Shown: piece by piece, positions 2,182 through 63,161 of the stretch | Numbering within the stretch: the first letter of the stretch is position 1 | Layout of the letters: every line of letters begins with the position of its first letter | Program-made: the position numbers and the translations under genes | Assembly (NCBI RefSeq): GCF_016097555.1 | Contig: NC_054701.1 | Span: 1,774,091 to 1,838,090, forward strand | Direction: 5' to 3' | Length of the DNA stretch: 64,000 nucleotides | From: Gigantopelta aegis | Taxonomy: Eukaryota > Mollusca > Gastropoda > Neomphalida > Peltospiridae | The notes under the pieces: generated by a model | Databases searched by the model: none | The model's input: the letters and a program-made list of their open reading frames with translations, nothing else | What the model was told of the DNA's origin: nothing

Positions 2182-3108
2182 AGGTCTATACAGTGTCCGA
2201 TGAATGTATTTCAGGTCTATACAGTGTCCGATGAATGTTTTTCAGGTCTGTACAGTGTCCGATGAATGTTTTTCAGGTCTATAACAGTGTGGGATGAATG
2301 TTTTTCAGGTCTATAACAGTGTGGGATGAATGTTTTTCAGGTCTCTATACAGTGTCCGATGAATGTTTTCCAGGTCTGTACAGTGTCCGATGAATGTTTT
2401 TCAGGTCTATAACAAGTGTCCGATGAATGTTTTCCAGGTCTATATATGTCCAATGAATGTTTTCCAGGTCTATACAGTGTCCAGTGAATGTTTTTGAGGT
2501 CTACAACTGTCCGATGAATGTTTTCCAGGTCTATACAGTGTCCAGTGAATGTTTTTCAGGTCTATAACTGTCTGATGATTGTTTTTCAGGTCTACAACTG
2601 TCCAGTGAATGTTTTCCAGGTCTATACAGTGTCCAGTGAATGTTTTTCAGGTCTATAACTGTCTGATGATTGTTTTTCAGGTCTATAACTGTCCAGGGAA
2701 TGTTTTCCAAGTCTATACAGTGTCCAGTGAATGTTTTTCAGGTCTATACAGTGTCCAATGAATGTTTTTCAGGTCTATACAGTGTGCAGTGAATGTTTTT
2801 CAGGTCTATAACTGTCTGATGATTGTTTTTCAGGTCTATAACTGTCCAGGGAATGTTTTCCAAGTCTATACAGTGTCCAGTGAATGTTTTTCAGGTCTAT
2901 AACTGTCTGATGATTGTTTTTCAGGTCTATAACTGTCCAGGGAATGTTTTTCAGGTCTATACAGTGTCCAGTGAATGTTTTTCAGGTCTATAACTGTCCA
3001 GTGAATGTTTTCCAGGTCTATACAGTGTCCAGTGAATGTTTTTCAGGTCTATACAGTGTCCAGTGAATGTTTTTCAGGTCTATACAGTGTCCAGTGAATG
3101 TTTTTCAG
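2182..3108 (+). repeat. Acceptor-derived minisatellite in RPL6 last intron
   Basis: Thirty imperfect tandem copies of a unit of about 30-33 bp run directly into the true last exon. Each unit contains the acceptor tract tttttcag followed by gtctatacagtgtc, which are the first 14 bases of the exon at 3109. A few copies are mutated (tttccaag, ttttgag). Only the 31st occurrence continues into the RPL6 reading frame. The array therefore presents about 28 acceptor-like AG sites before the authentic one. Confidence 0.92.
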
Positions 3109-3270
3109 GTCTATACAGTGTCAGATGAGCGGAAGGAGGATCAGGTGGAGGTAGATAAACAAATTCTCGACGTCGTGCGCAAACACAAAGACAAGAAATT
3201 GATTTTCGGATACCTCGGAGCAATGTTCTCGTTGAAGAACCGAGAATATCCTCACAAAATGCTCTTCTAA
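3109..3270 (+). CDS. RPL6: 60S ribosomal protein L6 (eL6), last exon
   Basis: This exon encodes 53 residues and a TAA stop. It begins VYTVSDERKEDQVEVDKQIL and ends in REYPHKMLF, matching the conserved RPL6 C-terminus (human ends YPHKLVF). It is in phase 0 with the exon ending at 1412. The start is placed at the last of 31 tttttcag|gtct junctions, because only that one continues in frame. The 3' UTR is very short, with AATAAA 21 bases after the stop. Confidence 0.95.
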   Translation, partial: VYTVSDERKEDQVEVDKQILDVVRKHKDKKLIFGYLGAMFSLKNREYPHKMLF

Positions 3271-3290
3271 ATGTCAAATCTGAACTGTAA

Positions 3291-3296
3291 AATAAA
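3291..3296 (+). terminator. Poly(A) signal of RPL6
   Basis: A canonical AATAAA lies about 20 bases downstream of the RPL6 stop, as is typical for compact ribosomal protein 3' UTRs. Confidence 0.75.
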
Positions 3297-4621
3297 ACAA
3301 AAAAACGTGGAGTCGTGAATGTGTTCCTTTTTCACGTTAATACTGTTTTAGATTTTAAAAAACCATTAACATCCCTTGTAATTAACAACATTGTCAAAGC
3401 AAAATGAAATGCCTCGGCATTGTATTTTAAAATACTTTTGCCATGGCTTCATTACATTGCATCATACAAGATGAACCATCGGAATCTCCACATTGAATGG
3501 GACAAACCCAATAGCATGGGATACTGGAGACTAGATGAACATAGTTGATCAAATTTGTTCAACCATATTTTTTGACCAGGTAATCCGGGCCGACTAGGTA
3601 AGGCCTGCTTTCCATCAACAGGATTTGATTGTGTGTTTCTGCGTGTGTAATTGTGGTTTTGGTAGCGGATTGCTAGTAAAATGGGACGTCTAACTGTGCT
3701 TTAACTGCTGTGACTCGAGTTGCCAGATTCTCCTGTTTGTTTCTATTTGTCAAGACGGGGGGGGGGGAATCTAGGTGCAGTGAATGACTTTACATGGAAT
3801 GCAAACGTTACTTTGAACATTCCAGATATTTATGCAGCGATTGTGTTGTATAAATAACTTCACATACTAGTATGTTTCATTCTGGCTGGTTTATTTTGCG
3901 CAAGAATGTGTAGCAGTTGAGTGGTATGTGCAATATCCAGCAAAAACGTACAGTTATTTTTTAACTTCGACATCAAAAGATGTGACAACTACTTTCTTAG
4001 TACTCCTTCCAGCAGTCGGAAGTTTTAAATGAAATGTGAAGTAAATCATATATGGCTCAAGGAACAAAGGGGTTAAATAGAAAAATAAAGTTCCGATCCA
4101 GATCGCAGAAGATAATTATCTGAGAGTTCGAAAAATAGTAACGTTGAATCGGGGTTGGGAATTCTCGGGTCCATGGTTTTCCTCTCCTGGAACATTGCAT
4201 TTCCTCGCATTTTAATCGTCCTTGTCCCTGGATCCCTCTAGATTTACTCCTTTTTTTTTTTTTTTAACAGTTCACCACCCCAGACCCCACTAGATTTGCT
4301 CTTTTACAGTTCACCAATTCTCTCTGTTCAATAGGTATGTAATAAATTAATATGTCCTCCAACCTTTAAGAATTCCTCTTGGTGGGTGGATCTACCGATT
4401 GGTTTGCTGTTCTAACCAGGTCTACAACAGACGTATCCAAGGTTGGAGTACATGCTGTTCTTGCTGTGCTCAAATGGGTTGTCTTGTATCATGACCAGTA
4501 ATGACATACATTACAAAAAAACAAAAAAGGGGTGTACTAATGGGAACTACTTTAATAGTTTTCTCTTGTTAATATTTAGCCTGACCTGCAACAAAAGGCA
4601 TTTTCCCTCGTGTTAATTGGG
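3297..4621. other. Intergenic region between convergent RPL6 and eIF3c
   Basis: No coding exon was seen. A G-run lies at about 3758-3767. At about 3850-3935 there is a diverged half of the palindromic MITE family described at 12849 and 21586 (shared gcgcaagaat core). Confidence 0.5.
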
Positions 4622-4918
4622 GCGGCTTTAGCCCAGTGGTAAGGCTAGATGTGTGGGATCAATCCCTGTCGTCTGTCCATTTGGCTATTTCTCATTCCAG
4701 CCAGTGCACCACGACTTGTATATTAAAAGCCGTGGTATGTACTACCTGGTCTGTGGGATGGTGTACAGATCCCTTGCTGCTAATCGAAAAGAGTAGCCCA
4801 TGAAGTGGCGACAGTGGGTTTCCTCTCTTAGTATCTGTATGGTTCTTAGCCATGTCCGACACCGTAAATAAAATGTGTAGAGGGTGTCGTTGAAATAAAA
4901 CATTTCTTTCATTCTTAT
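4622..4918 (+). mobile_element. tRNA-derived SINE, full length
   Basis: The left end looks like a tRNA-type pol III promoter: A-box-like tagcccagtggtaaggct, then B-box-like gggatcaatccc. It is followed by a SINE body (ggatggtgtacagatccctt, then gaagtggcgacagtgggttt) and a tail ending gtcgttgaaataaaacattt. The body and tail match the opposite-strand SINEs at 20911, 35451 and 46961, but the head is of a different type. Confidence 0.8.
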
Positions 4919-4929
4919 GTTAAGTCTCA

Positions 4930-5660
4930 ATATCTCTAAATTGAAAAAAGGAACACATAAGTAGTATCCCTCATCTCATCTCATCTCATCTTGTGGCCAT
5001 AGGAAGCTAACAATCTCATCTCGTGATCCTAGGAACCATGTCATCTCGTGGGCCTAGGAAGCTAAGCATGTCATCACGTGGTCCTAGGAAGCTAAGCATG
5101 TCATCACGTTGTCCTAGGAAGCTAACCATGTCATCACGTGGTCCTAGGAAGCTAAGCATGTCTCTAAAAATATCTCTGAAATGAAAAAAAATAAAATGGA
5201 ACACACAAGTAGTATCCCTCATCTCATCTCATCTTGTGGTCCTAGGAAGCTAACCATGTCATCACGTGGTCCTAGGAAGCTAACCATGTCATCTCGTGGT
5301 CCTAGGAAGCTAACCATGTCATCTCGTGGTCATAGGAAGCTAACCATGTCATCACGTGGTCCTAGGAAGCTAAGCATGTCATCACGTGGTCCTAGGAAGA
5401 TAACCATGTAATCACGTGGTCCTAGGAAGATAACCATGTCATCTCGTGGTCATAGGAAGCTAACCATGTCATCACGTGGTCCTAGGAAGCTAAGCATGTC
5501 ATCACGTGGTCCTAGGAAGCTAACCATATAATCACGTGGTCCTAGGAAGCTAACCATGTCATCTCGTGGTCCTTGGAAGCTAACCACGTCATCTCTGGGT
5601 CCTAGGAAGCTAACCACGTCATCTCTGGGTCCTAGGAAGCTAACCATGTCATCGACATTC
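4930..5660. repeat. 30-bp minisatellite, intergenic
   Basis: About 20 copies of a 30-bp unit containing cctaggaagctaaccatgtc. Two flanking-sequence segments (about 4932-4995 and 5164-5235, agtagtatccctcatctcat) are also duplicated, so the array grew in at least two blocks. Because 30 is a multiple of 3, both strands stay open. These frames are not genes. Confidence 0.9.
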
Positions 5661-5675
5661 TACATTTTGTGTGTA

Positions 5676-6632
5676 CCGTATATCTTCGCCTGTAAGTCGA
5701 TCTCGGCTATAAGTCGAGTCCCTAATTTCAAGCCCTGAAAACGTATTTTTTTATTGACCCGTTTATAAGTCGACCCATGAAAAACTACTTAGAAATATTG
5801 AAATATTTCTTATTTTCAGCACATGAGAACAATAATATTTGAACAAAAGAAAATTATTTTACAAACTTTGGTTTTCACGTTTTGTACATCGCAATATAAT
5901 CAGACTATTCCAATCAAACTATCATTATTACATAGCATCAAAACGAAATATTCCCTTAGTAGAGAGTGAAAGCTGTTTGACTGTTACTGTATAGTACTGT
6001 ACAGATGGTTTTGTGCACAGACAACAACTTTATTTATAAACACTGACAACAGATCACTACGATAAAACTGAAAGTATCACGTTTTGCCGCCATATTAATA
6101 CATGTAAGGAGGATAACTCTGGAAAGTACACTGGTTTTTGTACAAATGATGTGTGTCCCTATTGCTCTAGATAGTGAACTGCAGAGATCAGTCTATTTTA
6201 AGGGAAAGCTCGGTAATATTCATGAAGTTAATCACCGCCAAAACATTGTTTGAACAACCATTAATGCCAGTGACCAGATTTCAAAATAAACTCAGGCAAC
6301 AGGTAGTTAGTATTGTTTACATTTTTACTATTAGTGATGACTGTTAATTTAACTAAGTGGACTTGTCTTGGCATGTGAGTGAGATCGTACGCCTTTTCGC
6401 ATAACCAAAACCGTTCTAATGCCAAAAAAAATAGGTTATAAAAAATAAATGTGTCAAATTAACATATTTGAGTATAAATACATGGCATACTTCAACAATA
6501 AAACTTGTAAAATAATCCACAAAACAGTAATATTTTTTGTTGAATTTTTTTTACCCTCTTATAAGTCGACCCCCCAAGTTATAAAATAATTTTTGGGTGA
6601 AAAAAATTCGACTTATAGGCGAAGATATACGG
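5676..6632. mobile_element. Non-autonomous Tc1/mariner-type element with TA duplication
   Basis: This 957-bp element is bounded by inverted termini: ccgtatatcttcgcctgtaa on the left and the complement, ttataggcgaagatatacgg, on the right. Each end abuts a TA dinucleotide (5674-5675 and 6633-6634), the Tc1/mariner target duplication. Subterminal ataagtcgac motifs are repeated inward. No transposase frame is present. Confidence 0.7.
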
Positions 6633-6656
6633 TATTTTATACAGACATAACTACAT

Positions 6657-6775
6657 TAAAAAATTTGTTTAACGACACCACTAAAGCACATTGATTTATT
6701 AATCATCTGCTATTGGATGTAAAATATTTGGTGATTTTGCTACATTTTTCCATTAGCAAATTTCTTTTTTTTCAA
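6657..6775 (-). mobile_element. SINE fragment
   Basis: The tail of the common SINE family (tttgtttaacgacaccacta, attgatttattaatcatctg) is present, but the tRNA-like head is missing. The body stops after tttttccattagcaaa. Confidence 0.65.
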
Positions 6776-7030
6776 ATATATTTTCCAGAGTAACACCACA
6801 CGACAGCCCATAAAACTTCACTCGCTACAGAACACAAAAGCTGTGCACGTGCGCCAGTGTCTCTAACAACTACATTCTGAAATGATCATGTTGGACACCA
6901 AACAGCCAGTGTCTTCAATGACCAAGTTAAATTCACTGACGATGTTCATCACCAATGGGAGCCGTGATGAACGCTCCGACTAAAACTTATAAAAATAATA
7001 CATGAAAACAACTGAGACCAAGAAGTTATT

Positions 7031-7036
7031 TTATTA
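7031..7036 (-). terminator. Candidate poly(A) signal of eIF3c
   Basis: AATAAA on the - strand, about 465 bases after the eIF3c stop codon at 7502. The intervening 3' UTR (7037-7501) contains no other clear feature. Confidence 0.5.
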
Positions 7037-7501
7037 CCATTTGACTGAATCCAGATATAATAAATCACAAAAACCACCATGACATATTTTAATACTTTTA
7101 GACATACACATTGGTCATGTAGAAATGTGAAAACATTTTTTCTAAGGTTGATCTTAAACTAACTGCTGTAACCATGGGGGTGGGGATAGACGTAAATTAA
7201 ACAAATAAATAGTATCCACATGTTGTTAAAATAGTATGGCTACAGAAATTCAAAGATTTCACGATTTGTTTTCTCAAGTGTAATCAAGCAAAATATTATT
7301 GATTATTGGAAATATGTACATTACTGACGAATAACAACTGAGAGTCCAAATTGTTTAAGTTGAGTTTCACAAAGTACAACACACTGATAGTACAACTGTA
7401 TCCAAGTCTGAGAGAGAAAATCAATATTACAGCTGTGTAGCCTTTGTCTGCACGATCCATTGACAGAGTCTTTATACACTTCTACAACACCGTCGGCGAG
7501 A

Positions 7502-7542
7502 TCAGTAATTCCTCTGTCGATTGTCTCGGTTCCCTCGGCGTC
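7502..7542 (-). CDS. EIF3C: eIF3c exon 25 (C-terminal exon with stop)
   Basis: The acceptor atttgtag is followed by a frame that completes a glycine codon with the previous exon, then reads [12 protein letters not shown] and TGA. A basic Gly/Arg/Tyr-rich end is what the eIF3c family shows. Residues 924-936. The overlapping longer open frames on both strands here are out of phase with the gene. Confidence 0.85.
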
Positions 7543-10500
7543 CTACAAATAACAATAAATATTTTAACATCATCACTAAGTGAGCTGTTAAGTTCGTTAG
7601 TCACTGACAAATTATTAGTTTTGCCCAATTTTGATTCATTAACACTGAAAGCACACAGTTCGTGTATCATATATTTGTACGGGTTGATGCCAAGGCATTT
7701 TGTGAATATCTTTGTGATAAAACTAGGATCATGCAAGAAGACAATGTTTGAAACTTCAAGCAATATAAGATACATCTCTGAGCAATGGACAGCATTTGTA
7801 TACTTTCCCATTTTTGTTGATTTTTTTAATTTTAACTCCATTTTTTCCAGAATTATAACATTATTATTTAACTTAAAAAACACCTTGACATTACTGTTAT
7901 TCAGATAAAAAAACATGGTTTAACAACTGTTGATCGGGTAAAAACATTCGAGTTTAACATTACTGTTGACAGAAAACATTATTTAACATTACTGTTGATC
8001 GGATAACTAGGATAAAAACATACCCCAACCTTGAGTTTAACATTACTGTTGATCGGGTAGAAAACATGCCCCAACCTCGAGTTTAAATTACTGCTGATCG
8101 GGTAAACAACATACCCCAAATTACTGTTGATCGGGTACTCGAGTTTAACATTACTGTTGATATCGGATAGAAAACATACCCCAACCTCGAGTTTAACATT
8201 ACTGTTGATCGGGTAGACAACATGCCCCAACCTCGAGTTTAACATTACTGTTGATCGGGTAGACAACATACCCCAACCTCGAGTTTAACATTACTGTTGA
8301 TCGGGTAGACAACATACCCCAACCTCGAGTTTAACATTACTGTTGATCGGGTAGAAAACATACCCCAACCTCGAGTTTAACATTACTGTTGATCGGGTAG
8401 AAAACATACCCCAACCTCGAGTTTAACATTACTGTTGTCAGGTAGAAAACATACCCCAACCTCGAGTTTAACATTACTGTTGATCGGGTAGACAACATAC
8501 CCCAACCTCGAGTTTAACATTACTGTTGATCGGATAACATTACTGTTGATCGGGTAAACAACATGAACCTCGGTTTAACATTACTGTTATCGGGTAGAAA
8601 ACAAACATACCCCAAACATTACTGTTGATATCGGATAGAAAACTCGAGTTTAACATTACTGTTGATCGGGTAGACAACATGCCCCAACCTCGAGTTTAAC
8701 ATTACTGAGACAACATACCCCAACCTCGAGTTTAACATTACTGTTGATCGGGTAGACAACATACCCCAACCTCGAGTTTAACATTACTGTTGAAAACATA
8801 CCCCAACCTCGAGTAAACAACATACCCCAACCTCGAGTTTAACATTACTGTTGATCGGGTAGAAAACATACCCCAACCTCGAGTTTAACATTACTGTTGA
8901 TGATCGGGTAGAAAAAACATACCCCAACCTCGAGTTTAACATTACTGTTGATCGGGTAGAAAACATACCCCAACCTCGAGTTTAACATTACTGTTGATCG
9001 GGTAGAAAACATACCCCGGGTAACCTCGAGTTTAACATTACTGTTGATTGGGTAGAAAACCTACCCCAACCTCGAGTTTAACATTACTGTTGATCGGGTA
9101 GAAAGCCTACCCCAACCTCGAGTTTAACATTACTGTTGATCGGGTAAACAACCTACCCCAACCTCGAGTTTAACATTACTGTTGATCGGGTAGAAAACAT
9201 ACCCCAACCTCGAGTTTAACATTACTGTTGATCGGGTAGAAAACATGCCCCAACCTCGAGTTTAACATTACTGTTGACCGGGTAGAAAACATACCCCAAC
9301 CTAGAGTTTAACATTACTGTTGATCGGATAACATTACTGTTGATCGGGTAAACAACATACCCCAACCTCGAGTTTAACATTACTGTTGATCGGGTAGAAA
9401 ACATGCCCCAACCTCGAGTTTAACATTACTGCTGATCGGGTAAACAACATACCCCAAACTCGAGTTTAACATTACTGTTGATATCGGATAGAAAACATAC
9501 CCCAACCTCGAGTTTAACATTACTGTTGATCGGGTAAACAACATGCCCCAACCTCGAGTTTAACATTACTGTTGATCGGGTAGACAACATGCCCCAACCT
9601 CGAGTTTAACATTACTGTTGATCGGGTAGAAAACATTCCCCAACCTCGAGTTTAACATTACTGTTGATCGGGTAGAAAACCTACCCCAACCTCGAGTTTA
9701 ACATTACTGTTGATCGGGTAAACAACCTACCCCAACCTTGAGTTTAACATTACTGTTGATCGGGTAGAAAACATGCCCCAACCTCGAGTTTAACATTACT
9801 GCTGATCGGGTAAACAACATACCCCAAACTCGAGTTTAACATTACTGTTGATCAGATAGAAAACATACCCCAACCTCGAGTTTAACATTACTGTTGATCG
9901 GGTAGAAAACATGCCCCAACCTCGAGTTTAACATTACTGTTGACCGGGTAGAAAACATACCCCAACCTCGAGTTTAACATTACTGTTGACCGGGTAAACA
10001 ACATGCCCCAACCTAGAGTTTAACATTACTGTTGATCGGGTAGACAACATACCCCAACCTCGAGTTTAACATTACTGTTGATCGGGTAGAAAACATACCC
10101 CAACCTCGAGTTTAACATTACTGTTGATCGGGTAGAAAACATACCCCAACCTCAAGTTTAACATTACTGTTGATCGGGTAGAAAACATACCCGAACCTCG
10201 AGTTTAACGTTACTGTTGATCGGGTAGAAAACCTACCCCAACCTCGAGTTTAACATTACTGTTGATCGGGTAGAAAGCCTACCCCAACCTCGAGTTTAAC
10301 ATTACTGTTGATCGGGTAAACAACCTACCCCAACCTCGAGTTTAACATTACTGTTGATCGGGTAGAAAACATACCCCAACCTCGAGTTTAACATTACTGT
10401 TGATCGGGTAGAAAACATGCCCCAACCTCGAGTTTAACATTACTGTTGACCGGGTAGAAAACATACCCCAACCTAGAGTTTAACATTACTGTTGATCGGA

Positions 10501-13500
10501 TAACATTACTGTTGATCGGGTAAACAACATACCCCAACCTCGAGTTTAACATTACTGTTGATCGGGTAGAAAACATGCCCCAACCTCGAGTTTAACATTA
10601 CTGCTGATCGGGTAAACAACATACCCCAAACTCGAGTTTAACATTACCCCAAACCTCGAGTTTAACATTACTGTTGATCGGGTAAACAACATACCCCAAC
10701 CTCGAGTTTAACATTACTGTTGATCGGGTAGACAACATGCCCCAACCTCGAGTTTAACATTACTGTTGATCGGGTAGACAACATACCCCAACCTCGAGTT
10801 TAACATTACTGTTGATCGGGTAGAAAACATACCCAAACCTCGAGTTTAACATTACTGTTGATCAGGTAGAAAACATACCCCAACCTCGAGTTTAACATTA
10901 CTGTTGTCAGGTAGAAAACATACCCCAACCTCGAGTTTAACATTACTGTTGATCGGGTAGAAAACATGCCCCAACCTCGAGTTTAACATTACTGTTGACC
11001 GGGTAGAAAACATACCCCAACCTCGAGTTTAACATTACTGTTGACCGGGTAAACAACATGCCCCAACCTAGAGTTTAACATTACTGTTGATCGGGTAGAC
11101 AACATACCCCAACCTCGAGTTTAACATTACTGTTGATCGGGTAGAAAACATACCCCAACCTCGAGTTTAACATTACTGTTGATCGGGTAGAAAACATACC
11201 CCAACCTCGAGTTTAACATTACTGTTGATCGGGTAGAAAACCTACCCGAACCTCGAGTTTAACATTACTGTTGATCGGGTAGAAAACCTACCCCAACCTC
11301 GAGTTTAACATTACTGTTGATCGGGTAGAAAGCCTACCCCAACCTCGAGTTTAACATTACTGTTGATCGGGTAAACAACCTACCCCAACCTCGAGTTTAA
11401 CATTACTGTTGATCGGGTAGAAAACATACCCCAACCTCGAGTTTAACATTACTGTTGATCGGGTAGAAAACATACCCCAACCTCGAGTTTAACATTACTG
11501 TTGATCGGGTAGAAAACATGCCCCAACCTCGAGTTTAACATTACTGTTGATCGGGTAAACAACATACCCCAACCTCGAGTTTAACATTACTGTTAATCAC
11601 GTAAAAAACATACCCCATCCTTGATTTTGATTCCACCTGTCTTGGTCTCTATCTCGATCTAAAAAGAGTGAGCAATAATTAATATTTTTAAATAACATTA
11701 AACAAAGCTGAAGATGAATTCAAATTCATTACTGATACAAAAATAGACATCTCTGCCCCTTCCCCCCCCACCCCCACCCCCCCAAAACAAAAACAACAAA
11801 TCCACAAAAAGTCTTAGCTAGGCTAGAATATGTTTTTAAAAAATGGTGAAAACCTAACTTGCTAAGAAGATGCACCACATCAAAGGTTAAATCAATCCAA
11901 CAATCATAACGGAAAGTTGTTCAGATTTTACAGATGTAAATGACCGTGGACAAAAAACAATCCTGAAAACTTTAGTGAGTTTAAAATTGTAGGAAGAAGT
12001 TCCCGAGGAGAGAACGATTTTTTAAATTACACTAAAATCCAACATTATGGAAAAATGTAATTTGAGGTTTTCATCTCTGATGACGGAGTAGAAAGCCAAG
12101 ATCAAAATGCCCCAACCTCACCAGAATGTGAATAAAAAACACATTATGAAGATTCAACATAGCAAATGAATACAATACAAATAACAGTAACAACACCATG
12201 GCTATTTGTCACCATACAATTACATGAACAGTGAAGCCAGGATCTACAGGCCTATGTACCAAACTAACTTTCTCAGATATAAACATATGCCTAGTTAGAC
12301 GACAAGTTTGTCATACTGCACCAAATACAGAGGTTTCAAAACAGACTTCACTTTGGTATACTCACTCCATCCCCCTTGCCTCCCTTCTCCGCGATCTAAA
12401 AGAAATGGTGTAAAATTAGGACCCAACGGGCCAGACATGACCAAATAGGAATATGGAGGCACAACACACAATGATTTGCAGATGTTTACAATCCACGATA
12501 CCAGTGATAAATACAGAAACAATAGCAGCTGTCACACGATAAGAGAAAGTTGAAGCATAAAGCCAATAAAACAGAGAGATGAAAACATCAAGGAAATATA
12601 ATCACCATCAAATGACAGTTCAACATAACAAATATCAAATGGATCAGAATAAAGAATGTGACACTAATTGCTTTTTCAAGATGGTAACCAGAGATGTGAA
12701 ACAAATGGTCCTCCCAAAACAAAATGGAAATAAAATATACAAGTACAATACTATAATAACTAAACTACGTTTACAAGAACACCCCACTTATTATACAACT
12801 ACCTCAACAGATAGTTAGAGAACATGGAAATATACAAACACACATTAATAATAAATATATAAAACTTCATATATGTTATTTTCACTTCCTATTTATTGCA
12901 CTCGTTTATTGTGCGCAAGAATATATATGCATGTTATTGTGCAATATAAACGAGTGGAATTAAATAGGAAGTGAAAACAATGTATGTGAAGTTCTGTATT
13001 TATTACATGCCTTCTTTTATTTTTTACAAAAACGTTTTTTAATTTAACATCATAACTATACTTTCTTAAATATATTGCTCAATCTTCCTTTCATGGATTT
13101 ACTTAACATTAAGAATCACACTCTGTGGCAATGTTGTGTCATGTTTAAATACGATGTGACATAATTTGTAAACCAGACAAGACATCAGTAATAAAAAGGC
13201 GCAAACGCCAGTAAAATAAAAAAGGGATTTCCTCATTTACCAGTTGACATGTTTTATCATATTAAGATTGAATAGGTATGTAATAATAACAAAGCTGACA
13301 TTGACATCCCATCTACAACAGATTTCAGGTTTTATATACTTACTCCATCCCCCTTGCCTCCCTTCACCGCGATCTAAACAAAGAAATGGTCATAATTAAT
13401 AGTTATGGATGTGGTGACATGGAAATAAAATACAAAACTAAAATTAGCATTCAATATTGTCAATATAAAACCAGTGTAACAAAAGATTACAACTACTGAA

Positions 13501-19500: not shown

Positions 19501-22500
19501 TCATGTTCCTAGCCAGGTATAATGTCATGTTCCTAGCCAGGAATGACACCATCTTCCTAGCCAGGAATGACATGTTCCTAGCCAGGAATAACATGTTCCT
19601 AGCCAGGAATGACACCATGTTCCTAGCCAGGAATGACGCCATGTTCCTAGCCAGGAATGACACCATGTTCCTAGCCAGGAATGACACCATGTATCTAGCC
19701 AGGAATGATGTCATGTTCCTAGCCAGGAATGACACCATGTTCCTAGCCAGGAATGATGTCATGTTCCTAGCCAGGAATGACACCATGTATCTAGCCAGGA
19801 ATGATGTCATGTTCCTAGCCAGGAATGATGACATGTTCCTAGCCAAGAATGACACCATGTTCCTAGTCAGGAATGATGTCATGTTCCTAGTCAGGAATGA
19901 TGTCATGTTCCTAGCCAGGAATGATGTCATGTTCCTAGCCAGGAATGATGTCATGTTCCCAGCCAGGAATGACACCATGTTCCCAGCCAGGAATGATGCC
20001 ATGTTCCTAGCCAGGAATAATGTCATGTTCCTAGCCAGGTATAATGTCATGTTCCTAGCCAGGAATGACACCATGTTCCTAGCCAGGAATGACATGTTCC
20101 TAGCCAGGAATGACACCATGTTCCTAGCCAGGAATGACACCATGTTCCTAGCCAGGAATGACATGTTCCTAGCCAGGAATGACACCATGTTCCCAGCCAG
20201 GAATGATGCCATGTTCCTAGCCAGGAATAATGTCATGTTCCTAGCCAGGAATGACACCATGTTCCTAGCCAGGAATGACACCATGTTCCTAGCCAGGAAT
20301 GACATGTTCCTAGCCAGGAATAACATGTTCCTAGCCAGGAATGACACCATGTTCCTAGCCAGGAATGACGCCATGTTCCTAGCCAGGAATGACACCATGT
20401 TCCTAGCCAGGAATGACACCATGTTCCTAGCCAGGAATGATGTCATGTTCCTAGCCAGGAATGACACCATGTATCTAGCCAGGAATGATGTCATGTTCCT
20501 AGCCAGGAATGACATGTTCCTAGCCAAGAATGACACCATGTTCCTAGTCAGGAATGATGTCATGTTCCTAGTCAGGAATGATGTCATGTTCCTAGCCAGG
20601 AATGATGTCATGTTCCTAGCCAGGAATGATGTCATGTTCCCAGCCAGGAATGACACCATGTTCCCAGCCAGGAATGATGCCATGTTCCTAGCCAGGAATA
20701 ATGTCATGTTCCTAGCCAGGTATAATGTCATGTTCCTAGCCAGGAATGACACCATGTTCCTAGCCAGGAATGACATGTTCCTAGCCAGGAATGACACCAT
20801 GTTCCTAGCCAGGAATGACACCATGTTCCTAGCCAGGAATGACATGTTCCTAGCCAGGAATGACACCATGTTCCTAGCCAGGAATGACACCATGTTCCTA
20901 GCCAGGAATGAAAGAAAGAAAGAAATGTTTTATTTAACGACACACTCAACACATTTTATTTACGGTTATATGGCGTCAGACATATGGTTAAGGACCACAC
21001 AGATTTTGAGAGGAAACCCGCTGTCGCCATTACATGGGCTACTCTTCCGATTGGCAGCAAGGGATCTTTTATTTGCACTTCCCACAGGCAGGATGGCACA
21101 AACCAAGGCCTTTGTTGAACCAGTTATGGATCACTGGTCGGTGCAAGTGGTTTACACCTACCCATTGAGCCTTGCGGAGCACTCACTCAGGGTTTGGAGT
21201 CGGTATCTGGATTAAAAATCCCATGCCTCGACTGGGATCCGAACCCAGTACCTACCAGCCTGTAGACCGATGGCCTGCCACGACGCCACTGAGGCCGGTA
21301 GCCAGGAATGATGTCATGTTCCTAGCCAGGAATGACACCATGTTCCTAGCCAGGAATGATGTCATGTTCCTAGCCAGGAATGATGTCATGTTCCTAGCCA
21401 GGAATGACATCATGTCCCTAGCCAGGAATGACATCATGTTCCTAGCCAGGAATGACATCATGTTCCTAGCCAGGATGCTCAGCGTTCCATCAATTCCATA
21501 AAATTCAACCAACTTTCCAGATGAAGTAAGTTATGTTATTTAATTAAACTTTTATTAATCATAATAGAGAAAGGTGGTATGTAATAAATACAGAACCACA
21601 TACTAGTTGTTTTATTTATTGCACTCGTTTATCATGCGCAAATTTTATACCACTCGACTGCTACGCGATCTCGTGGTATAATATTCTTGCACACTATAAA
21701 CTCATGGAATAAATAATATAGCAAAACAACAACTGGTATGTGGTTCAGTCTATTTATGACACCGTGGAACAAGACATGCCTTTCAGATAACATTACATCA
21801 ATGTTGCCAAGAGATTATCAGCAGCTTCTTGAAGAAATATTGTTGTGTTGTTATATTATAAGTGTTAGTTGTGACCTGTATATATGGAACAAAGGTTTCT
21901 TAAACGTCATCCATGTAGAGTTTAATTAGCAGATATTATGTGTATAAGAGCTGGTAAAGAAAAGTTTAGAATATGATGCAAGAAACTAATATCAATTCAA
22001 AAAGCTAATCTTTATTATTTGTCTTTTATATGAACTTCAGTACAGACAAGACAGCACAAACCATAACCTTAAATATAGAAAATGTGAAACCTTGATTGAA
22101 ATGGACAAATGAATTACTCAGGTGGTCAAGAAAACCATTTGTTAAACACCAAACAAAGAAAGACACCCCTAACACTGATGACAAGTGTCTCATTATAAAA
22201 CTCTCATCCAATACCGAGAGGACGCCACCACCCAAAGATTCCAATCACCAAGCCAACATCTGTGTCAGCCTTACCAGTCACAACACAGCTTCTGTGAACA
22301 GAGTGGCATCATGCAGTTAGTAGTGGAATACTAATACTAAACACTAATCATCTACTACTACTACTTAGTTATAAGTAGGTTAAAATGACCTAAACGTTAA
22401 GGATACAAAAGAAATTGACAACAATCAGTTGACAGGTTGCTAGTCATTTCGTACTATGGTCATTTTGTACCATAGTCATTTCGTACCTAATTTGGTCGTT

Positions 22501-40500: not shown

Positions 40501-43500
40501 ACCTGGGTGGGTACGTCAGAATGCTGTATGGAATGTTACAGATCACAACACAAACCTGGTTGGGTATGTCTGAATGCTGTATGGAATGATACAGATCAAA
40601 CACGAACCTGGGTGGGTACGTCTGAATGTTGTATGGAATGTTACAGGTCAAACAATACAAACCTGGGTGGGTACGTCAGAATGCTGTATGGAATGTCACA
40701 GATCAAACAACACAAACCTGGGTGGGTACGTCAGAATGCTGTATGGAATGTTACAGATCACAACACAAACCTGGTTGGGTATGTCTGAATGCTGTATGGA
40801 ATGATACAGATCAAACACGAACCTGGGTGGGTACGTCTGAATGTTGTATGGAATGTTACAGGTCAAACAATACAAACCTGGGTGGGTACGTCAGAATGCT
40901 GTATGGAATGTTACAGGTCAAACAACACAAACCTGGGTGGGTATGTCTGAATGCTATATGGAATGTTACAGGTCAAACAACACAAACTTGGGTGGGTACG
41001 TCAGAATGCTGTATGGAATGTTACAGGTCAAACAACACAAACCTGGGTGGGTACGTCAGAATGTTGTATGGAATGTTACAGATCACAACACAAACCTGGG
41101 TGGGTATGTCTGAATGCTATATGGAATGTTACATGTCAAACAACACAAACCTGGGTGGGTACATCAGAATGCTGTATAGTGTTACAGGTCAAACAACACA
41201 AACCTGGGTGGGTACGTCTGAATGCTCTATGGAATGTTACAGATCACAACACAAACCTGGGTGGGTACGTCTGAATGCTGAATGGAATGTTACAGATCAC
41301 AACACAAACCTGGGTGGGTACGTCTGAATGCTGAATGGAATGTTACAGGTCAAACAACACAAACCTGGGTTGGTACGTCTGAATGCTGTATGGAATGTTA
41401 CAGATCACAACACAAACCTGGGTGGGTACGTCTGAATGCTGTATGGAATGTTACAGATCACAACACAAACCTGGGTGGGTACGTCTGAATGCTGAATGGA
41501 ATGTTACAGATCACAACACAAACCTGGGTGGGTACGTCTGAATGCTGTATGGAGTGTTACAGGTCAAACAACACAAACTTGGGTGGGTACGTCAGAATGC
41601 TGTATGGAGTGTTACAGGTCAAACAACACAAAAATGGGTGGGTGCGTCTGAATGCTGTATGGAGTGTTACAGGTCAAACAACACAAATCTGGGTGGGTAC
41701 GTCACAATGCTGTATGGGGTGTTACACATCACAACACAAACCTAGGTGGGTATGTCTGAATGCTGTATAGTGTTACAGATCACAACACAAACCTGGGTGG
41801 GAACGTCTGAATGCTGTATGGAGTCCTGGAGGTGCGACATGAGCATGAGGTCGCGAGCCTGGAACCAGCGGTCATGCAGGGCGTGGTGGTAGATGTGGCA
41901 CAGCATGGCGCGGGTCCGCAGGCGATCTGTGCTGTCTTTAGCGTAGATGTATTTACAGAGTCGGTCCATGTCATCCTCCGACGATGTCTCCTCGGCATCG
42001 CCCGCTCCCTGTAACACACGTTACAAATAATACCACGTTTCACCCTGGTAACACACGTTACAAATAATACCATGTTTCACCCTGGCAACATGTTACAAAT
42101 AATACCATGTTTCACCCTGATAACACGTTACAAATAATACCATGTTCCACTGTTAACACGTTACAAATAATATCATGTTTCACCTTATTAATACACATTA
42201 CAAATAATATCTTGTTCCACCCTACAATTTACAAATGCTATTGTTTTCAACATAAAGAAAACACTTATTTCCAAATACTAATATTGTGCTTCACCCTAGA
42301 CAAAATAATTTACAAATTCACCATTTCACACCAAACGAACAATTTAAAAATACTATTGTGTTTCATTCTAAATAAAACCACATACCAATCCTATGGTTTT
42401 ACTCTGAATAAAACAATAGGAATACAACAAAATCCAATTATTATATAATTTCACCCGGTTAAAACAATTTACAAATACTATTATTTTTCATCATGAATAA
42501 CACAATTTGTAAATATGTATACTCTTTCTCATCTTATTTTAACAAAATCATAAAAAAACAATACCTCTTTCTCTGGTTCAAAGCAACTGTGATCAAACTG
42601 AAAAACAAAGATTTAATTGCATGATGATAAATCAAAATAAAGTACTTAAAGTCTGTTTGATTGAAAAGGGAACCTATGAATTGGCATATGATTCTATAAT
42701 GAATAATGTTAAATCTTATAATAAAACATATTACTCAGTTTTAAACCCATACCAACACCAAAAAACACAACAATTTCTGTGTAAATAAAAAGTTTCTTTA
42801 CAAACTGCCAACAAATTATATTTAAAAAATATCATAAAAGAAGCGACTTTTAGAGTATTTTCTTATTTCAGTAATACTTAGCATAACCTCCCACTATAAT
42901 GCAATGAGTTCAGAGGTCAGGTTAACTGACATAAGAAATAGATGCTATGTACAACCAACACTGATGTACCAATACAAAATATGTACGTACATTTTTTAAT
43001 TTTGGTGTACATTGTCAATTAAAAATCATATTTTAAAGAAAAAGTCTTACTAAAAATAATAATGTTCATAACAGACTACCTTGTAGTAGATGTGTTCAAT
43101 TCTCCTCAGGTAGATGCGACAGAGTTCTTCTGATGTGCCCCTCTGTTCCAGATATTTCTGAAGACGTTTTGTCATGTCATTGATTTCATATTCATCTTGT
43201 AACCTATGAAAAACAAAGAGAGTCCCGTTTCTTTATCTCACATCTTGGACAAATATTCTACCAAGTTCAATGCTGCTTCAAATCTGATGACAACTTTTAA
43301 ACTTAAACAAACACAAATTGATGAAACAAGTGTGTTTTCTCTTTTAGTACGAATTAGTGATGACAGTAATAGACAAAAAAGTTGTGAAAAACTAGGCATG
43401 TTCTTGAAAAGAAGGCAGTTCATGTGTGTTGCTACCTACAGAACAAGAACAAGAACACTTTTCAGATAAAGCTAAAATATGGAATTCTGGAGCATTTTCA

Positions 43501-46500
43501 TGTCAAACAAATACTTCTATTGATTCTATGGAGTCCAGTTAACTGTTATTTTTCATTAACAGACAGCTAGTTATATCTATTTATACAGAAACATCAGTGT
43601 TCTCGCTGCTCCATTTAAGCGGGGCGCCCCGCCCCACTATTCCATTTTGCCGCCCTACTTTCACGTTCCCCGCCCTCCTTTATTTTCCAGCACCTATCTC
43701 CGCTATTTCCAAATGCACTTTTTTTCCACACAAAAAACAACGATCAGTCTGCACACTGAACATCAAAGGAAAAAAGCTGCGTTGTGTACGAAAAAGCAAT
43801 TGACGAAACATTTACGACAGTTACCGTAACGTAATTTAACAGTATTTTGAACAGCCTCTATTTTGTCCAATATCTGTATCCATTTGTATGTTTGATAGAC
43901 ACAATAAAAGTTATATTTTATGTAAGCAATGAAAACATTTGATTTTTTACGGATTCGGCAATCTCCGATTGAAAAAACCCCGTCTTATTTGGCGCCAAAT
44001 TTGTCACGTGATCAGAACGGTCATTCTGTCTTTTGTTTCCACTAACTATCGTTTGATATTTTGTCCTCTGTTGCAGATATAATTGGTTGAAACTGATGAT
44101 TTTTACTTTCTGTTATTCTGTTTATTAAGCAGATCTTTATAAAATATTGTAAACTTTTGATTTTGAGGGGATATGAACTCTTATAAAAACAACGGAAGTG
44201 GTAGTGTTTATCATTAAAATCATTCATCTTGAGTGCCAAATAATATATACATATATCAGCTGGCGATATTTTATCACAGCGATCGATTCATTCGATGAAG
44301 ATGGAAATAACAAAAATGTATCTGACATTAAGAGATCACTTTACAAACATCTTTATTGTTTTTCGTATATCTTGAAATCTTTATTAAAAATAATAATATT
44401 AAAACTTTGATCGGTCCAGCAAAACCGGAACTGCCTGTGAATGTCAGACCGACATCATCTTCGGTTCAATTAAACGACGAGTCTTTTTATAAACCCTTTT
44501 GCACTTTTTTGTAGGCAAAATAAGGAGTATGTCTTTTCTCAAAGTCTACCAACACACAACAATATGGTAACCAAACTACTCCCCCCCCCAACCCCCCTTT
44601 TTTTTTTTTTTTTTTTTTTTGCTTTTCGTTTATTGGTGGTTTTGTTTTTGTTTTGTTTTTTTGAAGGGTGTGGTGCAGACCGGCCGCCCTCCTTTAATTT
44701 TCACCCAGCGAGAACACTGAACATTCACTTTTGTACTAGTTAATAGTATTAGTTCTACCAATATTACTAGGCAACATGTTGGTTCTAGTTTTGTACCAGT
44801 TCAATGTGTTAGTTCTAGGTGTGTTACCTGTCAATATATGATTATAGGTCAAAATATCGTTACAGGTGTTACCCGAGAACAAATTATAGTTGTGTTACCT
44901 GTCAACGTATTCTGTACTGTGAGCATCGCATCCCTGTAACATCTTGGTAAACTCCTCATCCATTCTTTCCAGCGTTGTTAAAACACAGCCACGCACTTGG
45001 TACGGCGACGTCTGAAATACATTAACAAACATCCCTACATGAAAACAACTCCAGTGTTAAAACACAGCCACACACTTGATATGGTGATGTCTAAAATACA
45101 TTAACAAACATCCCTACATGAAAACAACTCCAGTGTTAAAACACAGCCACGCACTCGATATGATGACGTCTGAAATACATTAACAAACATCCCTACATGA
45201 AAACAACTCCAGTGTTAAAACACAGCCACGCACTCGATATGATGATGTCTGAAATACATTAACAAACATCCCTACATGAAAACAACTCCAGTGTTAAAAC
45301 ACAGCCACACACTTGGTACGGCGACGTCTAAAATACATTAACAAACATCCCTACATGAAAACAACTCCAGTGTTAAAACACAGCCACGCACTCGATATGA
45401 TGATGTCTAAAATACATTAACAAACATCCCTACATGAAAACAACTCCAGTGTTAAAACACAGCCACGCACTTGGTACGGCGACGTCTGAAATACATTAAC
45501 AAACATCCCTTCATGAAAACAACTCCAGTGTTAAAACACAGCCACACACTTGATATGGCGATGTCTAAAATACATTAACAAACATCCCTACATGAAAACA
45601 ACTCCAGTGTTAAAACACAGCCACACACTCGATATGATGACGTCTGAAATACATTAACAAACATCCCTACATGAAAACAACTCCAGTGTTAAAACACAGC
45701 CACACACTCGATATGATGACGTCTGAAATACATTAACAAACATCCCTACATGAAAACAACTCCAGTGTTAAAACACAGCCACACACTCGATATGATGATG
45801 TCTGAAATACATTAACAAACATCCCTTCATGAAAACAACTCGTGTTAAAACACAGCCACACACTTGATATGGCGATGTCTAAAATACATTAACAAACATC
45901 CCTTCATGAAAACAACTCCAATGTTAAAACACAACCATGCACTCAGTACGGTGATGTCTGAAATACATTAACAAACATCCCTACATGAACTCCTGACATA
46001 AGGAGTTGTTTTCATGTAGGAATGTTTGTTAATGTATTTCAGACATCACCGTACCGAGTGCGTGGTTGTGTCTGTTAACTAAAAGTAAATATTATACAGT
46101 ATAATACAGGTATATGTGTAACAATAAAATTGGTTTGTCCAAATATTTTCTTGAAAAGTTATGTTTTGGATACAAAAATTTGTGGCTCCCATCACCCATC
46201 AGAAATTTACCTGCAATTTCACTAAATAATATCAAAACAATCATGAACATAATTTCCTACCTTTTGGAATGGGAAACAAAGAGTACCGGTGAGGTACATG
46301 ATATGCCTGTCAGGAGTTTGATGGAAAACCACACATATTAATGAATATGTTACGGGGATGATTCATTTCTAATTATGTGAAATGTTTGCAATGGTAAACA
46401 ATCCTAACTTCTTCAAAGGCTCAACAAGATTTTCTCTATGATGTTCAGAATATACACAAATTATTTTATTTATTGTATCACAGTGACTTAGTGACCATCC

Positions 46501-49500
46501 CAAGTTGTTCCTACATGTGAGGTTTGATGGTCCTGTATACATCTGTATGTAAGATATGGGCTGCATAAGAAAAAGTTAACAGACGGACAATGCCATACCA
46601 TAATACGACCCATCATAGACAGGTGTATAATAACTGGGGGTGGGGGGAGGGTGCTACATGGATAAAGTATAAAGTAATCCACCACATCCCAGGTGAAATC
46701 TCTAGCACGAGATACATCGTACCAAATGAATCAAGTTAGGGCTCTGACTTGTTGAGGTCAAGATTGAGCCTCGGGAGCGGTACAGTTTTACAACCCTGGA
46801 AGAAGAGTTTTGTGATTGAGGAAGAAGAGTTTTGTGATTGAGGAAGAAGAGTTTTGTGATTGAGGAAGAAGAGTTTTGTGACCGAGGAAGAAAAGTTTTA
46901 CGACCGTGGAAGAAGAGTTTTGTGACTGAGGAAGAAGAGTTTTGTGACCGTGGAAGAAGAAAAAAAGAAATGTTTTATTTAATGATGCACTCAACACATT
47001 TTATTTACAGTTATATGGCGTCAGACATATGGTTAAGGACCACACAGATTTTGAGAGGAAACCCGCTGTCGCCACTACATGGGCTACTCTTTCTGATTAG
47101 CAGCAAGGGATCTTTTATTTGCACTTCCCACTGGCAGGATAGCACAGACCATAGCCTTTGTTGAACCAGTTATGGATCACTGGTCAGTGCAAGTGGTTTA
47201 CACCTACCCATTGAGGCTTGCAGAGCACTCACTCAGGGTTTGGAGTCGGTATCTGGATTAAAAATACCATGCCTCGACTGGGATGTGAACCCAGTACCTA
47301 TCAGCCTGTAGACCGATGGCCTAACCACGACGCCGGTACCGTGGAAGAAGAGTTTTGTGACCGAGGAAGAAGAGTTTTATGACCGTGGAAGAAGAGTTTT
47401 GTGACCGAGGAAGAAGAGTTTTGTGACCGTGGAAGAAGAGTTTTTGACCATTGAAGAAGACTTTTACGACCGTGAAAGAAGAAAAAAAGAAATGTTTTAT
47501 TTAACAATGCACTCAACACATTTTATTTAATTATATGGCGTCAGACATATGGTTAAGGACCACACAGATTTTGAGAGGAAACCCGCTGTCGCCACTACAT
47601 GGACTACTCTTTCTGATTAGCAGCAAGGGATCTTTTATTTGCACTTCCCACAGGCAGGATAGCACAAACCATAGCCTTTGTTGAACCAGTTATGGATCAC
47701 TGGTCAGTGCAAGTGGTTTACACCTACCCATTGAGGCTTGCAGAGCACTCACTCAGGGTTTGGAGTCGGTATCTGGATTAAAAATACCATGCCTCGACTG
47801 GGATCTGAACCCAGTACATATCAGCCTGTAGACCGATGGCCTAACCACGACGCCGGTACCGTGGAAGAAGAGTTTTGTGACCGAGGAAGAAGAGTTTTAC
47901 GACCGTGGAAGAAGAGTTTTGTGACCGAGGAAGAAGAGTTTTGTGACTGAGGAAGAAGAGTTTGACTATAACCATACCTCGACATTCTCATTGTCTTCTG
48001 CGATGTTTTCCCCGACAGTGATGTCCTCGTTAGTAATCAACAAGTCCAGCAGCTCCTTCATCGCGCTCATACAGCTGAAAACACAAACACGACGCTCAGT
48101 AAATACTGTGGCAATACCATCTACAATAGTCACTTCAAATATATAACCTAACACTTTCTTGTACCAAAATATCAATTATCTTCAAAACATAAACCCACCC
48201 ACCCCAAAGCCAAGGAATTCTGTAATTTAATAAAACCTAAAGTATGCAGTTTAAAACCACATAACATATTTAGTCCTAAAATTTTAAGTAATTGCAAAAA
48301 ACAGTTTGAAAAATGCATAAATTTTAAACAAACCAAGGGGAAGGTATTAGTTTATTTGTAAGTAAAATCAACAAAAGTTTAACATTTTCCAGTGCAATAA
48401 CAATAAATACTTGTACAACTTACTATGTCCACATTTGGTTTCTCATGTACGTTGCGATGTTTGGGTTGTAATAACAATAGATACTTGTACAACTTACTAT
48501 GTCCACATTTGGTTTCTCTTGCACGTTGCAATGTTTGGGTTGTAATAACAATAGATACTTGTACAACTTACTGTCCACATTTGGTTTCTCATGCACGTTG
48601 CGATGTTTGGGTTGTAATAACAATAGATACTTGTACAACTTACTGTCCACATTTGGTTTCTCATGCACGTTGCGATGTTTGCGTTGTAATAACAATAGAT
48701 ACTTGTACAACTTACTATGTCCACATTTGGTTTCTCATGCACGTTGCAATGTTTGGGTTGTAATAACAATAAATACTTGTACAACTTACTATGTCCACAT
48801 TTCGTTTCTCATGCACGTTGCGATGTTTGGGTTGTAATCAAAGATGGCCGCCATGATGTTGAACATGATCTTGACAGCCACCGCAGGGCCGAGGTTTGCC
48901 GTCTCGGCCACCAATTTCAACTCCTTCAACAGCTCAATCTGTTCCGATCGATCCGTGCCCTTCTTGCCACGGGCAGAAATAATTTCAAACAATTTCTTCA
49001 TCACAGCTTCGTGATTTATTTCCTGATCTTTGCTGAACATTTTTGGTTTCTCCTGATTAAAAAAATAAAACTTGGATCAGTTTCTCTTTTGACGAATACT
49101 TAACTTGATCTCTGGGGATACAGCATTTTTACTCCAGTCCCACAGAAAGCCCATACCTGACCTCTGGGGATACGGCATTTTCATTCCAGTCCCACGGACA
49201 GCCCATACCTGACCTCTGGGGATACGGCAGTTCATTCCAGTCCCACGGACAGCCCATACCTGACCTCTGGGGATACGGCATTTTCATTCCAGTCCCACGG
49301 ACAGCCCATACCTGACCTCTGGGGATACGGCATTTTCATTCCAGTCCCACGGACAGCCCATACCTGACCTCTGGGGATACGGCAGTTCATTCCAGTCCCA
49401 CGGACAGCCCATACCTGACCTCTGGGGATACGGCATTTTCATTCCAGTCCCACGGACAGCCCATACCTGACCTCTGGGGATACGGCATTTCATTTCAGTC

Positions 49501-60893: not shown

Positions 60894-60927
<34 letters not shown>

Positions 60928-61850: not shown

Positions 61851-61917
61851 ATGGGGAAAAAGTCAAAAGTTGGAAAAGCTCGAAAGGACAAATTTTATCA
61901 GCTTGCAAAGGAAACAG
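61851..61917 (+). CDS. FTSJ3: FTSJ3/SPB1 pre-rRNA 2'-O-methyltransferase, exon 1
   Basis: It encodes MGKKSKVGKARKDKFYQLAK plus ET and one base of a glycine codon. This is the conserved N-terminus of FTSJ3/Spb1 (human [20 protein letters not shown]). The product is a nucleolar SAM-dependent RNA 2'-O-methyltransferase acting on pre-60S particles. The ATG is the first in frame, with an upstream context lacking other ATGs nearby. The donor is GAAACAG|gtatta (phase 1). Confidence 0.93.
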
Positions 61918-62339
61918 GTATTAAAATAACATTAACTAAGTAAAACCTTAAACTGTAAAAATAATGTGATAGATATTAGATATAAACAAGAATTGCCTAA
62001 CTAAGGTTTTATAATAATTGTTTTAGATAAATAAAATATAGTTTATTATATATGAATATAAGGTGACTGGATAAAATTTAGAACTCTTGCTGCAAATTAT
62101 AAATATCTGGTACAGGTGTGTGTTATGGATATAAGACAATGTGGCGTGGGAAAAGGACTGGAATGTGGAGGTGGACAGCAAAAGAAGTTGAAACACAGAA
62201 GGTTCCATATTTAAGTTGAAAGTTACAGGTTGTAGAAACTTGCACATTTATTACTGACGTCACAGCCATATCAAATCAGAAAGTGGTTTTCCTGCATAAA
62301 CAGATGTCATCATATATGACATGATCTATGAGTATGAAC
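61918..62339 (+). other. FTSJ3 intron 1, proximal part
   Basis: AT-rich; nothing recognised. Confidence 0.4.
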
Positions 62340-62580
62340 CAGTCTTGGTGGTGTGGTGGTTAACCATCAGACTGAACACTGAGAGGTAATCGGTTCACAT
62401 CCTGGTACCAGCTCATTAGGGGACATTAAAGCCATCACACCGACTTGTCTCTCACAAACAACTGACCACTAATTTACGGTCTTGGACAGACAGACAATAT
62501 AGTTGATATGTGTTCCCAGGAGAGTATGCCTAAACTTTCATTGGATAGCTGGATGGAAATAAGTTAAAAAGAAATGGCAC
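62340..62580 (+). mobile_element. tRNA-derived SINE of another family
   Basis: The head ttggtggtgtggtggttaac (A box) and taatcggttcacatcctggt (B box) is followed by a body containing ccaggagagtatgcctaaac and a tail tggatagctggatggaaata. Confidence 0.65.
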
Positions 62581-62749
62581 CAATCACACATAATCAGTAG
62601 AGGCCTAAATAATAATAACAGCTGACAGATTGCAGCAAACACTATCTGCTTCTTTATTTACAATGGGTGGCCAAAAACTGAAAAAAATTATTTCATTTTA
62701 ATATTGTTTATATTAAAATGATTTTTTTTTTTAAAGTATAAAAGATGTC

Positions 62750-62830
62750 AATGAATGAATGAATGTTTAACGACACCCCAGCACAAAAATACACATCGGC
62801 TAATGGGTGTCTTAAAAGTTGTGTGTCAAA
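62750..62830. mobile_element. Short interspersed tail fragment
   Basis: gaatgaatgaatg followed by gtttaacgacaccccagcac and cggctaatgggtgtc, as at 26262. Confidence 0.6.
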
Positions 62831-62887
62831 AACTAATAAAAATATTACATGGCCTTGTATTTCATAGTTCTACTTAATTGTGTTTAG

Positions 62888-63040
62888 GTTACCGATCCCG
62901 AGCTGCCTTTAAGCTGATCCAGCTGAACCGAAAGTTTGAGTTTCTCCAGAAGTCACGAGTGGTCGTTGACCTGTGTGCTGCCCCGGGAGGTTGGCTACAG
63001 GTTGCCGCAGAAAACACGCCTGTGTCCAGTCTTATCATTG
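62888..63040 (+). CDS. FTSJ3: FTSJ3/SPB1 pre-rRNA 2'-O-methyltransferase, exon 2
   Basis: It encodes [40 protein letters not shown] and [11 protein letters not shown] plus a split codon. DLCAAPGGW is SAM-binding motif I of the RrmJ/FtsJ fold, and the Lys in AFKLIQL is the first of the K-D-K-E catalytic residues. The acceptor is gtgtttag (phase 1) and the donor ATCATTG|gtgagt (phase 1). The rest of the gene lies right of the window. Confidence 0.95.
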
Positions 63041-63161
63041 GTGAGTAGTGAAACATGCCAATGTCCAGTCTTGTCATTGGTGAGTAGTGAAAACACCAGT
63101 GTCCATTCTTATCATTGGTCAGTTGTGAAAACACACCAGTGTCCAGTCTTATCATTGGTCA
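63041..63161 (+). repeat. Donor-derived repeat of FTSJ3 exon 2 (3 copies)
   Basis: Three tandem copies of about 38 bp contain agtgtccagtcttatcattg|gt, copying the exon end (TGTGTCCAGTCTTATCATTG) and donor. The first two copies keep gtgagt or its equivalent; later ones have gtcagt or gtcaca. Confidence 0.88.

Follow-up and report, generated by a model that had tools for sequence, protein, structure and literature searches.

Minisatellites spanning exon-intron junctions in three neighbouring genes of the vent snail Gigantopelta aegis

The window analysed here is a stretch of 64,000 nucleotides (64 kb) from contig NC_054701.1 of Gigantopelta aegis, a hydrothermal-vent snail of the peltospirid gastropods, and comprises three animal genes: RPL6 (plus strand), eIF3c (minus strand) and the start of FTSJ3 (plus strand). 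Their introns carry tandem arrays whose repeated unit often contains a splice junction of the gene itself. Human proteins served as tblastn queries to place the exons, whose GT-AG borders and phases were then set. The eIF3c gene contains 25 coding exons, from 56812 to 7502, numbered as in an earlier note made from the sequence of this window. Its best match in a protein search was the G. aegis eIF3c-like isoform X3 (P0001), with 100 percent identity over the query, and the model without exon 23 equals this isoform at 926 of 926 residues. Isoform X3 carries just one of the twin exons 22 and 23, whose peptides are identical, so that either omission fits. RPL6 is represented by its last three exons, ending at 3267, and all their residues were found exactly within the G. 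aegis RPL6 protein (P0121). FTSJ3 contributes exon 1 (61851-61917) and exon 2 (62888-63040), both based on homology to a human sequence.

The arrays were defined by merging Tandem Repeats Finder (TRF) rows with a period of at least 10, a score of at least 150 being required for the main counts. Merging gave 41 arrays totalling 22,255 of the 64,000 bp, none of them lying wholly within an exon. The higher score was reached by 32 arrays, 31 of which are intronic (the open FTSJ3 intron included), and 13 of these 31 overlap an exon-intron junction or end no more than 15 bp from one. Judged by TRF extent, eight reach across a junction and take in 15-53 bp of exon, and the other five stop 5-15 bp inside the intron. 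In the eight straddling arrays the unit measures about 31-79 bp and is present in 4 to about 75 copies. Ninety-three exon fragments were identified outside their own exon (microexons 20-23 excluded); 83 reach to within 3 nt of the exon end and the other 10 are partial matches within the exon 10, 13 and 16 arrays.

The eight straddled junctions are the last acceptor of RPL6, the donors of eIF3c exons 8, 13, 16, 18 and 24, the acceptor of exon 10 and the donor of FTSJ3 exon 2. Their introns measure from 715 bp to about 8.3 kb, that of FTSJ3 being cut by the window end. In RPL6 a 31-bp array (2168-3128, plus) places the functional acceptor in its last copy, the exon starting at 3109, and holds 30 further copies of the site, here called decoys. 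The largest array, with about 75 copies of a 46-bp unit (8014-11628, minus; two TRF arrays, 8014-8119 and 8138-11628), lies at the donor of exon 24 (11658-11614), where the functional copy is identical to the decoy consensus at just 9 of 12 exon bases. The donor of exon 18 (25520-25358) bears a 45-bp array (25103-25379, minus). That of exon 16 (34354-34161) bears a compound 49/73-bp array (31382-34213, minus) with 36 decoy donors by pattern; among the decoys listed there, a listing that is not exhaustive, 25 of 27 equal the real site over the surrounding 24 bp. The 55-bp array of the exon 13 donor (exon 42008-41793) occupies 40115-41822 on the minus strand in about 32 copies, and the 74-bp array of the exon 8 donor (exon 49052-48790) occupies 48396-48838, minus, with 49 exon bp. 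At the acceptor of exon 10 (45011-44899) the unit is 79 bp long (44976-45989, minus) and the functional copy is the last one; a decoy at 45450-45485 is identical to the functional exon across 36 bp, and copies therefore probably exchange sequence. Finally, FTSJ3 exon 2 carries four copies of a 39-bp unit at its donor (63012-63159, plus).

The five arrays that stop beside a junction, all on the minus strand, belong to eIF3c, and in four of them (exons 13, 14, 15 and 17) the real splice site forms the terminal copy. The 37-bp array of the exon 13 acceptor (42016-42223) stops 8 bp from the acceptor, with degenerate copies that to the eye seem to continue upstream, and that of the exon 14 donor (38134-39650, mixed 18-44-bp period) lies 5 bp from a donor that is a diverged terminal unit; in both the array is closed by the real site, whose unit includes no more than about 3 exon bases. 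The 28-bp array of the exon 17 acceptor (26649-27183) stops 5 bp from exon 17 (26644-26441). A second 28-bp array (29739-30516, minus) includes the initial 47 bp of exon 17 together with the acceptor at 29899-29945 and 30473-30516, so that the start of this exon is copied twice, about 3.3 and 3.9 kb upstream and amid the same 28-bp units, as a higher-order junction repeat. In these three cases the real splice site matches the adjoining unit better than any of 1000 shuffles (0/1000 each). The exon 15 donor, 13 bp from a 25-bp array (37577-37812), matches its unit more weakly (edit distance 9/30; 1/1000 shuffles as good) and was absent from the earlier note. The exception is found at the exon 9 donor, where the array (47858-47963, 22-bp unit) stops 15 bp inside the intron and its unit is not matched by the real site (207/1000 shuffles as good); the array at the exon 8 acceptor was likewise ruled out as a junction unit (997/1000). 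Intron 9 contains three arrays of one 22-bp unit at 46798-47963, with starts 540 and 520 bp apart, which suggests a higher-order duplication without a splice site.

The earlier note had associated 11 junctions of the three genes with arrays, and all 11 associations hold: eight as overlaps with 15-53 exon bp, exon 17 through its two 47-bp copies, and the exon 13 acceptor and exon 14 donor with the few exon bases given above. The arrays it described as free of exon bases (49105, 23455 and 19300) indeed have no exon overlap. Its statement that arrays begin exactly at junctions does not stand, the junction lying within the unit, at positions that vary from array to array. By the measure it had proposed, array edges no more than 10 bp from a junction, there is no clear excess: 3 of 32 arrays, against a mean of 1.14 under rotation of the map (430 of 4000 rotations as high).

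In eIF3c and RPL6 the copy used in the annotated proteins is the terminal one beside the exon, the first for donors and the last for acceptors. Codon-position and GT/AG counts were made on the same seven arrays, that of exon 16 excluded. Between the functional copy and the decoy consensus there are 15 exon differences, 10 of them at the third position of a codon (binomial p 0.0085). Among the decoys, 14, 17 and 21 variants fall at codon positions 1, 2 and 3, and variation per site is 0.23-0.33 in the exon part and 0.31 in the intron part. This third-position bias in the terminal copy, beside the even spread in the decoys, points to evolution as coding sequence in the terminal copy and to intron-like evolution in the decoys. 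The GT or AG is intact in 132 of 158 decoys, the neutral expectation from general divergence being 140.2, and no selection for or against decoys was detected overall in the GT/AG retention of these seven arrays.

The effect of decoy use was predicted for 135 decoys defined by strict patterns: 5, 24, 36, 5 and 37 donors at exons 8, 13, 16, 18 and 24, and 7 acceptors at exon 10 and 21 at RPL6. Use of 130 of the 135 is predicted to cost the normal open reading frame (ORF), which is kept by none of the 21 RPL6 acceptors. All five decoy donors of exon 18, with their 45-bp units, are in frame and open, and their use is predicted to add 15-residue repeats to eIF3c, which makes this array a good place to look for real alternative decoy use. 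The decoys might themselves be functional, through extra U1 binding that protects long introns or through regulated unproductive splicing. The many intact sites and the open frame at exon 18 speak for such a role; the number of intact sites, not above the neutral expectation overall, speaks against it, and the idea is judged very improbable.

An assembly artefact, in which the assembler added or mis-joined copies, is the least probable explanation of all. Tandem arrays are hard to assemble, and one earlier G. aegis assembly made use of short-read shotgun libraries (PMC7736800). Against this, the copies differ from each other, with variant blocks that by eye recur in order; the same design is found in about 12 separate arrays; and the RPL6 and eIF3c proteins lie on one database contig of 96.8 Mb.

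The excess of arrays at junctions was measured on the full model with 56 junctions, and arrays, related ones included, were handled as independent; the window was chosen post hoc, the pattern having been noticed by its reader, and the chance values are valid for this window only. Random placement within the same introns would bring 0.97 of the 31 arrays across a junction or to within 15 bp of it, and 13 were observed (a value reached in none of 300,000 simulations); if the exon 24 array is counted as one instead of two pieces, the figures are 13 of 30 and 0.98. Edges within 30 bp of a junction occur in 10 of 32 arrays (rotation mean 2.99; 3 of 4000 as high). When the first unit is placed at random and straddling is free of cost, a null that depends on estimated ancestral intron length, 2.50 straddlers are expected against the eight observed (543 of 400,000 simulations), and at stricter score cut-offs 7 of 23 arrays straddle a junction where 2.19 are expected, and 6 of 15 where 1.50 are.

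This last comparison bears on a pure survival filter, by which duplication would be even along a repeat-rich genome, exonic duplications would be purged and junction ones would survive with a functional terminal copy. The earlier note had offered a plain form of it, survival of arrays keeping one functional junction. The filter accords with the lack of arrays wholly within exons, with the share of the window taken up by tandem repeats, with the coding constraint on the terminal copy and with the whole-map rotation reported below. It predicts too few straddlers even when straddling costs nothing, with the reserve that the null uses estimated ancestral intron length and a window chosen post hoc, and as a full account it is doubtful.

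The other inference of the earlier note was a replication- or repair-driven process starting at junctions. In the eight straddling arrays the end points of the units are scattered, 15-53 bp into the exon and 10-43 bp into the intron, and the exon share of the unit is compatible with a uniform distribution (Kolmogorov-Smirnov, KS, p 0.28); a breakpoint fixed at the junction is therefore disfavoured. What stands of the note's claim is the strong tendency of arrays to contain junctions, with a functional terminal copy beside many intact decoys. A rival reading is that duplication itself is more frequent at exon-intron borders, through pausing, R-loops or a change of composition, so that junction arrays are seeded more often. 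The excess of straddlers over cost-free random seeding favours it, as do the five further arrays that stop 5-15 bp inside introns and the lack of a clear age difference between anchored and other arrays. The scatter of exon and intron depths shows no fixed offset, and bases shared at the breakpoints are by eye clear only at exon 18 (about 7 bp) and weak at exon 8; more frequent seeding is rather unlikely and is the main rival for the excess.

The explanation preferred here, also the most economical one, is that the arrays are mirage-type minisatellites, named after a system of lancelets compared below, in which a junction was caught in a short duplication, growth was neutral and the terminal copy was fixed by selection. 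As a whole this is considered likely, its last step being the least certain. A short tandem duplication with a unit of about 31-79 bp would happen to include an exon-intron junction, and the duplicated unit would then grow by slippage or unequal exchange. With long introns the spliceosome would pair the sites closest across the exon (exon definition); the terminal copy would thus win and the remaining copies be carried along as intron. Terminal-copy use fits exon definition because the introns concerned measure at least 715 bp and because sites closest across the exon are reported to be preferred where flanking introns are large (PMC9225289). The excess at junctions may arise since a unit with a required junction would never be fully lost: its array could fall back to a single copy and expand again, while intronic arrays away from junctions could disappear for good. 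Regrowth from an unlosable copy is the favoured account of the excess and also the least certain part of the explanation.

Several results weigh against this explanation. When the whole map is rotated, the arrays that overlap some junction are no fewer than in the real map (mean 8.94, 8 observed), and the same control on an incomplete model of 43 junctions likewise showed no excess (7 against 7.03-7.19 in two larger sets), because rotated long arrays swallow whole exons; it was for this reason judged a cruder control and not the main test. If the count is limited to arrays that take in a single junction and never an entire exon, eight were observed against 2.34 (20 of 4000 rotations). Internal divergence was compared between 13 junction arrays and 19 others, the others including 8014, a piece of the array at exon 24, and 4982, which is intergenic; the medians, 10 and 8 percent, do not differ clearly (p 0.28), and the junction arrays are only marginally longer (535 against 200 bp, p 0.068). 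A greater age of the junction arrays, as regrowth predicts, is thus not shown by divergence or by length. The third-position signal comes partly from a single array, exon 10 giving 4 of the 10 differences. The exon 24 array keeps GT less often than the neutral expectation (55 of 74 against 67.4) and the RPL6 array keeps AG somewhat more often (28 of 30 against 24.7). The predicted harm of decoys includes 37 of the 130 disrupting ones in exon 24, where the new stop falls at codon 918 of 926 and the damage is small. Finally, terminal-copy use is known at the level of database annotation of the proteins.

The polarity of divergence within arrays is weak. The rank correlation of divergence with distance from the functional copy is positive in five of six arrays, and RPL6 has the one uncorrected p of 0.041, the others being 0.09 or higher. 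To the eye, divergence in the exon 13 acceptor array seems graded.

Other elements of the window were identified as well. The eIF3c microexons 20-23 (15938-12366, minus; 33, 33, 30 and 30 bp) are four near-identical exons coding for C-terminal repeats of the NRG(D/E)..GRQGGW type, and microexons 20 and 21 are also similar in flanking intron; a Haliotis protein (P0002) presents more of these repeats. Intron 16 of eIF3c contains a 182-residue open frame (28140-28688, minus) that to the eye resembles part of a mobile-element protein. At 22441-23228 the motif GTCATTTCGTACC occurs in two clusters of opposite orientation about 440 bp apart, which we take to resemble the ends of foldback elements or of miniature inverted-repeat transposable elements (MITE-like). 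RPL6 and eIF3c are tail-to-tail neighbours (3267-7502), and this adjacency may be old because the corresponding Batillaria proteins are numbered consecutively (BaRGS_00020558 and 00020559). No tRNA or Rfam matches were found in the 64-kb window.

The arrays are natural test cases of splice-site choice, since housekeeping genes, which have to be spliced correctly, here carry from 4 to about 75 repeats of a site next to the functional one. Should such arrays prove common throughout the genome, they would show how introns can gain length out of their own splice sites, and the exon-definition rule would become directly testable. It is tentatively proposed, at somewhat less than an even chance, that in this snail lineage junctions are a genome-wide source of minisatellites, where a copy held by selection regenerates arrays, so that conserved genes have introns which expand out of their own splice sites and hold many intact decoys for exon definition to ignore.

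The closest known systems are compared here. In human duplicated genes, internal tandem repeats at exon-intron boundaries alter splicing (PMC2812944); those genes are recently duplicated and often polymorphic, whereas the snail genes are conserved, have housekeeping roles and, in their annotated proteins, use the terminal copies. The minisatellite in exon 2 of IFI6 (6-16) provides multiple donor sites, two downstream units being used as donors (PMC4526556). Tandem units with splice donors are thus shared with the snail; in IFI6 alternative copies are used, whereas in the snail internal copies are not known to be used. In the potato RdRp gene an intron was gained by a tandem duplication crossing an intron-exon boundary, and in the AGGT model a duplicated exonic AGGT segment provides the two sites of a new intron (PMC4974935). 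In potato one duplication made a new intron, whereas in the snail existing introns carry many copies; the units of the eight straddling arrays hold an existing junction and extend into its intron, and by their units the arrays do not belong to this type of intron gain.

The earlier note knew of no described system of this kind, but one exists in the lancelet, the "mirages" of globin and Adh3 genes, minisatellite-like duplications over intron-exon boundaries at either end. Many of their copies retain AG/GT, reverse-transcription PCR (RT-PCR) suggests regular splicing, and their length is unstable (PMC3087553); troponin C and PGBD5 are further genes concerned (PMC3902484). As in the lancelet genes (Adh3, BflGb6, BflGb9, troponin C and PGBD5), the snail units span the exon-intron boundary in eight arrays, and in exon 17 at a higher order. 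Both donors (eIF3c 8, 13, 16, 18 and 24; FTSJ3 exon 2) and acceptors (RPL6 last; eIF3c 10 and 17) are involved, and many copies, not all, keep AG/GT, as the decoys of the seven arrays counted above do. On these three structural features the snail arrays, judged by their sequence, are members of the mirage kind. On regular splicing, the observation is that the terminal-copy models equal the annotated eIF3c and RPL6 proteins, and on length the analysis covered a single assembly.

The differences from the lancelet mirages are the mollusc host, the density of about a dozen arrays in one 64-kb window and the copy number, up to about 75 in the snail against 3 and 6 copies in two haplotypes of BflGb6. 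A statistical excess and a codon-position test, made for the snail, also set it apart from the published cases. A mollusc case of boundary-spanning minisatellites was not found in the literature searched, most subscription papers lying outside its coverage; within the reach of these searches the density, the number of copies and the host, a mollusc, are new. Beside these three, the excess which a simple selection filter does not explain stands out. The presence of such arrays in a mollusc suggests that mirages are not a peculiarity of the lancelet.

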